From contig JAURHD010000006.1 in assembly GCA_030833445.1 (NCBI GenBank), positions 1 through 64,000 of the forward strand: a stretch of 64,000 nucleotides of DNA, written 5' to 3'. Of this stretch, positions 36,270 to 38,625 are shown one piece after another; positions within the stretch are counted from its first letter, which is position 1; the number at the start of each line of letters is the position of its first letter. The stretch is from Cephaloticoccus sp. Its GTDB lineage: Bacteria; Verrucomicrobiota; Verrucomicrobiia; Opitutales; Opitutaceae. The translations under genes and the position numbers were made by a program. The notes beneath the pieces were generated by a model that was not told the DNA's origin, ran no database searches, and saw only the letters and a program-made list of their open reading frames with translations.

Positions 36270-36791
36270 TCACTTCCCCACGCCCGGCGGGGTAGAAACG
36301 GGTGCCGGTCCGCTGGGATAGATGCCGGCGGCGGCCATCCCGGCGGTGTGAATGTGCTCGAAGCGGCGGTCCGACATGGGATTGCCGGCCAGCATGTCGT
36401 CAGCGGGCAGACGAAGGTGCTGCTTGAGGGTGGCATCCAACACCTTGTCGTCAAAAAAGAGCACCTGCAGTTTGGTCGGCTCGTAACGCGAAACCGACCA
36501 CGTCTCGGCCACGGCTTCGGTGGGATAAAACCGGGTGTAGGTCCAGACCGTGACCGGTCCGTCCTTGCTCTTCTTGGTCTCGATTTTCGACGGTTTGCCG
36601 AGCGAAAGATAAACCATGTCTGACGTGTAACCAATATCCAGCGCGCCGGTCCGGATGGCCTGCTGTTGCTCGGGGGCGAGGGCCGCATAAGTGGCGGGTT
36701 TTTCCTGAATACGGGCGGAGACGCCGGTCTCACAGCCGGCCAAGAGCAGGGCCGCGAACGTCGTCAATACAAGGGGCAGGGCAGGTTTCAT
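36270..36791 (-). CDS. Lipoprotein, SmpA/OmlA-like small beta fold, unknown role
   Basis: A 173-aa protein with a lipoprotein signal (MKPALPLVLTTFAALLLAGC). An N-terminal helix (LAPEQQQAIRTGALDIGYTSDMVYLSLGKPSKI) is followed by a strand that matches the G-M-x-x-x-x-V-x-x-x-x-G-x-P type start of BamE/SmpA-like domains. A Pro-rich C-terminus (GPAPVSTPPGVGK) ends it. Role unknown; it could be a cell-envelope assembly or stress lipoprotein. It is convergent with msrB. Confidence 0.65.
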   Translation of the reverse strand: MKPALPLVLTTFAALLLAGCETGVSARIQEKPATYAALAPEQQQAIRTGALDIGYTSDMVYLSLGKPSKIETKKSKDGPVTVWTYTRFYPTEAVAETWSVSRYEPTKLQVLFFDDKVLDATLKQHLRLPADDMLAGNPMSDRRFEHIHTAGMAAAGIYPSGPAPVSTPPGVGK

Positions 36792-36957: not shown

Positions 36958-36964
36958 GTTAGGC
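36958..36964 (-). other. Possible last attC half-site (R'' core GCCTAAC) of the cassette array
   Basis: On the minus strand GCCTAAC occurs 50 bases after the end of the 65-aa cassette gene. It differs by one base from GCCCAAC, the partner expected for cassette 4, which starts with GTTGGGC at 37352. No matching second half or strong stem was seen to its left, so the array probably ends here in a truncated site. Apart from this, 36792-36957 holds no recognisable feature. Confidence 0.35.
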
Positions 36965-37013
36965 GATGAAAAACCCCGTGCGAGCGATTTGGTATCCGCT
37001 AGCGCAACCTGAC

Positions 37014-37211
37014 TTACTTCTCGGACTTCCCGCCGTTCGTCAGATTCTGGCGTTGCTGATTTTTCCTGGCCATCGCCACACCCACCACGAACAAGCTGCA
37101 ACCCACGGCAACCAACGCACCGTTATCGTTACTAAAAACCGATGCGAGGTTTAACGCGGCCCCCGCGATTATCAGGATGATAGAGGGGGCTTGTTTTTTA
37201 ATATTCTCCAT
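37014..37211 (-). CDS. Cassette 4 product: 65-aa two-helix membrane protein
   Basis: This small protein has two hydrophobic segments (about residues 9-26 and 31-49), a short NDNG loop and a basic hydrophilic tail (RKNQQRQNLTNGGKSEK). No homologue was recognised. It is on the same strand as the other cassette genes and follows attC1. About 135 bases separate the attC1 core from its ATG, unusually long for a cassette and containing only a hairpin near 37277-37316. Confidence 0.5.
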   Translation of the reverse strand: MENIKKQAPSIILIIAGAALNLASVFSNDNGALVAVGCSLFVVGVAMARKNQQRQNLTNGGKSEK

Positions 37212-37345
37212 CGAGGGACTGGCCTGGGTGGATTCTATAGTGGCCGTTATCCAGCAAGTCCATCGTTAATGAGGGCGGCGCACACCCAAGGCTGCCGTCA
37301 GCATATCGATGGGGTGTGCTTCCTGCGATGCAGTCATTTTTCTGA

Positions 37346-37412
37346 GCCCAACGTTTAGTGATGAGCCATGGCGGGGCGAAGCCCCGACATTGGCTCTGGC
37401 CGATTGTTAGGC
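37346..37412 (-). other. attC site 1 (integron cassette recombination site), 67 bp
   Basis: Read on the minus strand it runs from R'' GCCTAAC (37412-37406) to R' GTTGGGC (37352-37346). The inside folds as an imperfect hairpin: GAGCCA/TGGCTC outer arms and CGGGGC/GCCCCG inner arms around GAA. The stop codon of the cassette 3 gene lies inside R''. R'' is the exact complement of the R' at the start of cassette 3 (GTTAGGC at attC2). Confidence 0.85.
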
Positions 37413-37751
37413 TCTTTCATTCTTCATAGCCTGCATCGCAATTCTTCCGTCATCGATAATATTCTCTGTCTCGCCCTCGGCCACTCCGATTCTAAAACCC
37501 TCGAACTCGGGCATGAGCAGCAACTCTTCCAACAGCGCTTTGCAGCGCTCATAAGCCACTTTCTTTTCTTCGCCGAGAAACTTCACGGTGAGTCCGCTAT
37601 GCCATACCTGGACATCCTCGTCCTCGAGCTGGGCTATGATGCCACGCACCTTGGGCATCGAAGCATCGGTGAACCCCCAATCGCTGGACCCAAACTGAAT
37701 AACCCGCAGCTTCTGGGCGGGTGAAGGAGCAGCTTTGCGAAAAAACGACAT
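37407..37751 (-). CDS. Cassette 3 product: 114-aa cytoplasmic protein of unknown function
   Basis: A soluble mixed alpha/beta protein (KLRVIQFGSSDWGFTDASMPKVRGIIAQLEDEDVQVWHSGL, then a Lys/Glu-rich helix and FRIGVAEGETENIIDDGRIAMQ). I recognise no family. The gene fills its cassette. Its ATG is 8 bases from attC2, and its TAA lies within the attC1 core, as is common for integron cassettes. Confidence 0.65.
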   Translation of the reverse strand: MSFFRKAAPSPAQKLRVIQFGSSDWGFTDASMPKVRGIIAQLEDEDVQVWHSGLTVKFLGEEKKVAYERCKALLEELLLMPEFEGFRIGVAEGETENIIDDGRIAMQAMKNERA

Positions 37752-37758
37752 GTCTTTT

Positions 37759-37832
37759 GCCTAACGATTTAGCTGAGCCGCGAGCGCCGACGCGGAGCGG
37801 CGGTGCTCGTTGGCTCGGGCGACTTGTTAGCC
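37759..37832 (-). other. attC site 2, 74 bp
   Basis: Minus-strand R'' GGCTAAC (37832-37826) and R' GTTAGGC (37765-37759) bound a long imperfect palindrome (GAGCC...GGCTC, CGAGC...GCTCG, GCCG...CGGC). R'' is the exact complement of GTTAGCC, the R' that starts cassette 2 at attC3. Confidence 0.88.
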
Positions 37833-37848
37833 TATGGTTTCTGTATCT

Positions 37849-38055
37849 TCACAGCGATAGTAGTGCGCCGAATCCAAGTCCGAAAAGAATTGTGCCGAGG
37901 ATCACGTAAAACGCCCGAGCACCCTTGGCTCCGAAAGCTTTCTCCACAATCACTGCGCGAAAGTTCTCCCGGGACGCTTCCCAATCGAATATCGCGACCT
38001 TGAGAGAAAAGAACGCTCCGTAGAAACAGACGACGGCCGCGGCGATGGTGGGCAT
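37849..38055 (-). CDS. Cassette 2 product: 68-aa membrane protein
   Basis: A small protein with hydrophobic segments at about residues 3-20 and 48-67 separated by a charged stretch (WEASRENFRAVIVEKAFGAKG). Function unknown. ATG 38055 lies 7 bases inside the cassette from attC3, and its stop lies 16 bases before the attC2 core. Confidence 0.6.
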   Translation of the reverse strand: MPTIAAAVVCFYGAFFSLKVAIFDWEASRENFRAVIVEKAFGAKGARAFYVILGTILFGLGFGALLSL

Positions 38056-38062
38056 CTTGCTT

Positions 38063-38130
38063 GGCTAACGATTTAGCTCAGCCGCTCGGGCCGTGCAACG
38101 GCCCGAGTTGGCTGCGGCGACTGGATGGGC
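38063..38130 (-). other. attC site 3, 68 bp, with an altered R'' core
   Basis: On the minus strand R'' is GCCCATC (38130-38124) and R' is GTTAGCC (38069-38063). Between them lies a strong stem (CTCGGGCCGT with ACGGCCCGAG around GCA; outer arms GCCGC/AGCC with GGCT/GCGGC). R'' has ATC in place of the consensus AAC, but the start of cassette 1 (GATGGGC, 38461-38455) carries the matching change, so the pair still complements exactly. Confidence 0.8.
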
Positions 38131-38137
38131 ACTTTCT

Positions 38138-38449
38138 TCATATACCCATGACCGCCTCCCAGCCGGGGCCATTCGAAAAAGCCGAAGCGCCCCACGCAAA
38201 TAGCGGAAGGGCTGATGCGCCTAGGTAGATCGCGGCCTCTCTCCACTTCGTCTTGATCGACGCGGAAACCGCGAAACCGACTGAAACCAACGAGGTGACG
38301 AAGAAGGCCAGTGAGGCAAACATCTGAATAGCAGCCAACGGGGCGAGAAGATCGATCGAGGCTCCGAACAAACGAGCAGCACATCCAGGGAGGACGATGA
38401 TCGCCGTCACGACGACGAGCACGAAAACATAACGATTCCCGATCTTCAT
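38138..38449 (-). CDS. Cassette 1 product: 103-aa membrane protein
   Basis: Starts MKIGNRYVFVLVVVTAIIVLPGCAARLFG, which could be a lipoprotein signal (LPGC) or a first membrane helix. Further hydrophobic segments lie at about residues 30-62 and 71-88. No family recognised. The ATG is 6 bases from the cassette boundary core at 38455-38461, and the stop is 7 bases before attC3. Confidence 0.6.
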   Translation of the reverse strand: MKIGNRYVFVLVVVTAIIVLPGCAARLFGASIDLLAPLAAIQMFASLAFFVTSLVSVGFAVSASIKTKWREAAIYLGASALPLFAWGASAFSNGPGWEAVMGI

Positions 38450-38454
38450 AGTTT

Positions 38455-38461
38455 GCCCATC
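38455..38461 (-). other. Start boundary of cassette 1 (core GATGGGC)
   Basis: This heptamer is the exact complement of the R'' core GCCCATC at the end of cassette 1, which fixes the cassette as about 337 bp. No attC-type hairpin precedes it. This may be the attI-proximal end, a decayed attC or a secondary insertion site. No integrase gene is present on either side within the window. Confidence 0.55.
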
Positions 38462-38554
38462 AGTGTTATTCGGCCTTACTCGAAAGCCTTAGTGGAGTGG
38501 GTAACATAGACTCGGGAACTACGATAAAGCGTTGATTGGCACGATATGGGTTTT

Positions 38555-38607
38555 CTGGGTAAGGCATTTGTCGGGTGCGGTAGGCTCCTGCTAAAGCCTT
38601 ACCCAGT
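38555..38607. repeat. Inverted repeat TGGGTAAGGC...GCCTTACCCA
   Basis: Two 10-base arms about 30 bases apart lie 20 bases past the end of the Gfo/Idh/MocA gene. They could form a weak terminator for that minus-strand gene, although no T-run follows. GTTGGGC at 38606-38612 next to it also looks like an attC core, but no full site could be built. Confidence 0.35.
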
Positions 38608-38625
38608 TGGGCATTTGTCTTGTTC

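Follow-up and report, generated by a model that had tools for sequence, protein, structure and literature searches.

A gene-cassette array in a Cephaloticoccus genome that is probably a chromosomal integron without its integrase

A short array of gene cassettes in the genome of Cephaloticoccus sp. (GCA_030833445.1) is very likely what remains of an Opitutaceae chromosomal integron from which the integrase gene has been lost. The stretch analysed here, called the window, comprises bases 1-64000 of the 166,597-bp contig C66, part of an assembly of 2.92 Mb in 72 contigs that is 97.75% complete. The array is found in a region flanked by gfo and msrB, between gfo and the lipoprotein/msrB genes. It retains an attI site, recognised by homology, and a leader hairpin, which favours the loss of intI over other routes to an array of this type and marks it as a decayed integron, not a bare cluster of attC sites. 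Its elements are the following:

38553-38608, minus strand: predicted leader hairpin (covariance model R3), between the attI site and the start of the presumably lost intI
38455-38488, minus strand: putative attI site, with a small inverted repeat GGCTTTCGAGTAAGGCC, the conserved AATAACACTG and the R box G/ATGGGC
38069-38460, minus strand: cassette 1, start core GATGGGC being the complement of the end core GCCCATC
38138-38449, minus strand: ORF of cassette 1, 103 aa, membrane-like, no family
38063-38130, minus strand: attC site 3 (of cassette 1), matched by models R1 and R2 and included in training; fold z -4.2
37765-38068, minus strand: cassette 2, cores GTTAGCC/GGCTAAC, an exact pair
37849-38055, minus strand: ORF of cassette 2, 68 aa, Imm17-like membrane protein (E 4.8e-5, slightly under the Pfam cut-off)
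37759-37832, minus strand: attC site 2 (of cassette 2), with a near-identical copy elsewhere in the source genome (G000:C55:183705-183778)
37352-37764, minus strand: cassette 3, cores GTTAGGC/GCCTAAC, an exact pair
37407-37751, minus strand: ORF of cassette 3, 114 aa, no family; ferredoxin-like in a single-sequence structure model (pLDDT 68)
37346-37412, minus strand: attC site 1 (of cassette 3), matched by R1 (E 1.2e-5) and outside R1 training
36958-37351, minus strand: possible degraded fourth cassette (uncertain), with a 65-aa membrane ORF (37014-37211) and a lone GCCTAAC (36958-36964)

The three attC sites, spaced 230-346 bp apart, had been located in a sequence-only reading of the window; their places proved correct, and covariance models accept all three. 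That reading also put the ATGs 6-8 bases inside the cassettes, and they do lie inside, at a distance of 5-7 bases; the stop codon that it saw within a core is the TAA of the 37407-37751 gene, which falls in GCCTAAC. As for the gene products, a Pfam/NCBIfam search assigned no family to the protein of cassette 1. For that of cassette 3, a fold search returned generic ferredoxin-like matches only and a PDB sequence search nothing useful, with relatives in none of the 149 other genomes of the family and none in a scan of GTDB contigs, plasmids and viral contigs. No cassette protein of the window was matched at any compared locus of other genomes, PADLOC gave no match, and the plasmids and phages searched held no DNA similar to the array. 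These small genes enlarge the pool of orphan mobile genes. In the possible fourth cassette, the start core GTTGGGC and the end core mismatch at one base, and neither R1 nor R2 detects an attC site. The neighbouring lipoprotein gene (36270-36791) was dropped as a synteny anchor on account of its many copies, the family having as many as eight paralogues in one Opitutaceae genome.

The identity of the attC sites is supported by folding, covariance models and the cassette boundaries. The fold z-scores, from site 37346 to site 38063, are -3.4, -3.2 and -4.2. Model R1, which was trained on two sites of the window (37759 and 38063) plus the near-copy on contig C55, recovered the left-out site 37346-37412 when the 64 kb were searched, and also matched C22:80844-80913 in the source genome. 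A second model, R2, built from 73 matches in the family, scores the sites of the window at 51-75 bits and finds six attC sites (one of them weak) on three contigs of the source genome, so that, beyond what the sequence-only reading could see, attC sites occur on two other contigs. In both the models and the folding, the R and L boxes form stems, the spacers are unpaired and some bases are extrahelical, as expected of attC; Rfam holds no match for these sites. Among 64 distinct attC sites, 91% of the stem cells are paired against 72% after shuffling, with 213 double changes against 75; as the alignment was fitted to R1 and takes in a few opposite-strand and duplicate matches, these numbers lean towards the R1 structure, and even so the slid controls collapse.

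In an integron array, complementary core halves belong to one cassette, not to one attC copy. The exact complementarity between start and end cores reported in the sequence-only reading holds for the three cassettes of the window, each of them a small gene whose start core complements the R'' core of its attC at 7/7 bases. When the window and related loci are taken together (69 cassettes, a few loci being counted twice through two collections), the two cores are perfect 7/7 complements in 57, including the three of the window, compared with 15/69 for the two cores of one attC copy. Shuffled start/end pairs give a mean of 11.9 perfect pairs in 69, with a maximum of 24 in 20,000 shuffles.

The array starts, on the minus strand, at the junction of AATAACACTG and ATGGGC, with the inverted repeat just before it. 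In the complete integrons of G006 (a member of the same genus), G012 and G013, the same AATAACACTG block separates intI from the first cassette, and G021 has a variant of it. Since the block occupies this position next to an intact intI, it is taken to be attI, and 38455-38488 is assigned as the attI of the window by homology to these intI-linked sites. After the conserved G the sequence differs between sites and matches the complement of the end core carried by the first cassette, as integration at attI predicts. The attI pattern has 125 matches, distributed over 59 of the 150 genomes of the family; nearly all of the 24 exact matches that carry a name come from Opitutaceae, Opitutae or Verrucomicrobiota, and the reversed pattern, used as a control, gave no match among the genomes listed. 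With up to six copies per genome, attI outnumbers intI genes. Where enough upstream sequence was present (48 attI loci), intI is intact at 8, a remnant of 34-113 residues at 5 and not recognisable at 35, and for this reason loss in place fits only if such loss has been very common. The source genome has a second attI block, followed by a single lipoprotein-like cassette with its attC, whose start and end cores are one base apart (L013:1017-1570, corresponding to G000:C22:80361-80913).

The leader hairpin is situated 83 bp upstream of attI in the window, an arrangement shared with intact integrons, where the hairpin lies close to the start codon of intI. In the window, it is the stop codon of gfo that is found 17 bp from the hairpin, about where intI would begin. 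The stem covaries, and 30 of the 74 family matches of model R3, whose training set includes the window, are followed by an exact attI at a distance of 75-140 bp, roughly two thirds of these 30 being outside the training set; several of the remaining matches are accompanied by an attI with one mismatch or by an intact intI where one is expected. The match to L125 is found at the same offset (E 3.5e-6). Part of the stem sequence is repeated in the inverted repeat of attI, so alternative pairings are possible. Rfam contains no family for this hairpin, no promoter or terminator was predicted when the leader was scanned for them, and the portion of the literature covered by our searches holds no description of an Opitutaceae attI or of the leader hairpin. 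Further copies of this hairpin, which in Opitutaceae integrons stands directly before attI and beside the intI start, are located at L119:1591-1646, L120:1591-1646 and L125:1364-1419.

Comparison with congeners, which are different species and not strains, shows the presence or absence of the insert and the turnover of cassettes at one site. In G001 (gfo 95% identical), gfo and msrB are separated by 121 bp with no insert. In G002 (gfo 89%), the interval consists of an intI leader with the first intI codons, attI and one unrelated cassette-like ORF, its attC being broken as judged by eye. Fixed synteny in relatives, which according to the sequence-only reading would have spoken against a cassette array, is therefore not what these genomes show. 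The gfo-attI spacer of G002 aligns with the intI leader of G006, first intI codons included, at a score of 90 (shuffle maximum 28). Aligned directly to the leaders of G002 and G006, the spacer of the window is equalled by 15 and 34 of 500 shuffles, which is not significant, so that it is through attI and the R3 hairpin that this spacer is linked to the intI leader. In the stretches compared, G005-G008 keep GT-DedA-xseA-msrB with no adjoining gfo, which makes them uninformative about the site.

The intI gene that a complete integron would carry is absent from the window, as the sequence-only reading had it, and the TIGR02249 profile finds none in the rest of the source genome (assembly 97.75% complete), where it matches only Xer-type proteins far under the cut-off and one short weak stretch. 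As this genome combines clustered attC sites with Xer recombinases and no integron integrase, the label of CALIN (cluster of attC sites lacking an integrase; PMC9024848), proposed in the same reading, is descriptively apt. IntI proteins over the TIGR02249 cut-off are present in 10 of the 38 genomes sampled, among them the congener G006, which has two, each reading away from an attC array. Remnants of intI stand beside attI at five loci; the window itself has no surviving fragment.

According to the reading that we prefer, intI would once have stood beside gfo, reading away from the cassettes, and IntI would have joined circular gene cassettes to attI, recombining just after the G of the R box and leaving each integrated cassette flanked by complementary core halves. 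The gene would later have been deleted in place, both in the source lineage and in G002. What persists between gfo and the lipoprotein/msrB genes would be the leader hairpin, the attI site and no fewer than three cassettes, in an array presumably immobile now, save where an integrase acts on it in trans.

Other explanations have to be weighed against this one. All the repeats are GC-rich hairpins 3' of genes, and could have been ordinary intergenic palindromes, of the terminator or REP-like type, between unrelated small genes. This is extremely improbable: the core test (57/69 against a shuffle mean of 11.9) excludes chance palindromes, the core and the L box covary, and sites of this kind occur in the complete integrons of a congener. 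According to a review, CALINs can arise through intI loss, off-target insertion or rearrangement (PMC8618304), and the second of these deserves attention, given the 35 of 48 attI-like loci without intI: an IntI encoded elsewhere would have put the cassettes into a secondary, attG-like site beside gfo. The source genome even offers a candidate on contig C55 (L002:1069-1566), where a diacylglycerol kinase gene (dgkA) forms a cassette that seems to be set inside the end of another gene, with its start core, GATGGGC at L002:1069, lying in the 3' end of that gene and matching the end core GCCCATC of the cassette, and with no attI-like block; off-target insertion may thus also have occurred in this genome. 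A weak further attC is located at C55:184019-184148. Secondary sites of this type are not known to carry more than a minimal core. The site of the window, on the contrary, has an extended attI block and a leader 83 bp upstream, beyond what a chance secondary site would offer and hardly the target unrelated to attI that such insertions have, and G002 retains the start codons of intI at the same locus, all of which renders off-target insertion very unlikely here.

Alternatively, attI and leader may have been dispersed as a module, copied or cassette-borne, providing several landing pads for one IntI acting in trans. The excess of attI copies over intI genes would agree with this, as would an intI-less copy in G013 that shares 72% identity with the intI-linked one over 231 bp. 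However, the former copy (L121) retains a 35-aa N-terminal remnant of intI and must once have had the gene; at several more of the loci without intI, leader sequence is shared with intI-bearing ones, and no mobilising gene was seen, so that we regard dispersal as unlikely. A more speculative reading, which we hold to be rather doubtful, is that attI and the covarying leader hairpin 75-140 bp upstream constitute a compound landing site in Opitutaceae, the leader regulating cassette or intI expression or helping IntI to dock, and that this module persists, perhaps functional, at many intI-less loci with the integrase supplied in trans. If so, one genome would hold several separate cassette landing pads.

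CALINs, the loss of intI and integrons in Verrucomicrobiota are already known. With its small array of at least two attC sites in a genome without intI, the window resembles a CALIN, and differs from it in keeping attI and leader, on which the definition is silent and which make an origin by intI loss arguable. The integron remnant of Treponema phagedenis (PMC3607928) also has attC sites but no intI, and the relatives of its lineage possess complete integrons; in the window, however, attI is recognised and the former place of intI is located, and in intact Opitutaceae relatives intI reads away from the array, unlike in Treponema. The complete integrons of G006, G012, G013 and G021 share the attC family, attI block and array orientation, and differ in retaining IntI over the TIGR02249 cut-off. 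Sites called attG are named in PMC12901181. Insertions at secondary sites of this sort likewise leave cassettes with no adjoining intI, and differ from the window by the extended attI block and leader of the latter. The statement of the sequence-only reading that integron arrays are little described in this phylum is only partly right, given that a review records integrons in Verrucomicrobiota (PMC8618304) and that R1 matches attC-like sites in 19 of the 38 relatives that were sampled.

The window illustrates one route to CALINs, with the former place of intI, the attI site and, among congeners, a counterpart lacking the insert all identified. The less expected part, and the one worth following, is the attI conserved across the family with its covarying leader. 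As attI is usually hard to recognise, block and leader provide a sequence handle on it across Opitutaceae, by which intI loss and cassette turnover become traceable locus by locus. Two of the genomes compared provide further observations on such arrays. The complete genome G011, with no IntI match at E 1e-30 or better, has two large attC arrays (G011:C1:3326286-3334760 and 3909392-3912808), an attI block at 3907848 belonging to one of them. In G006, a complete integron contains a near-identical cassette twice (L089:10187-11827, contig C2), the product of a recent duplication.
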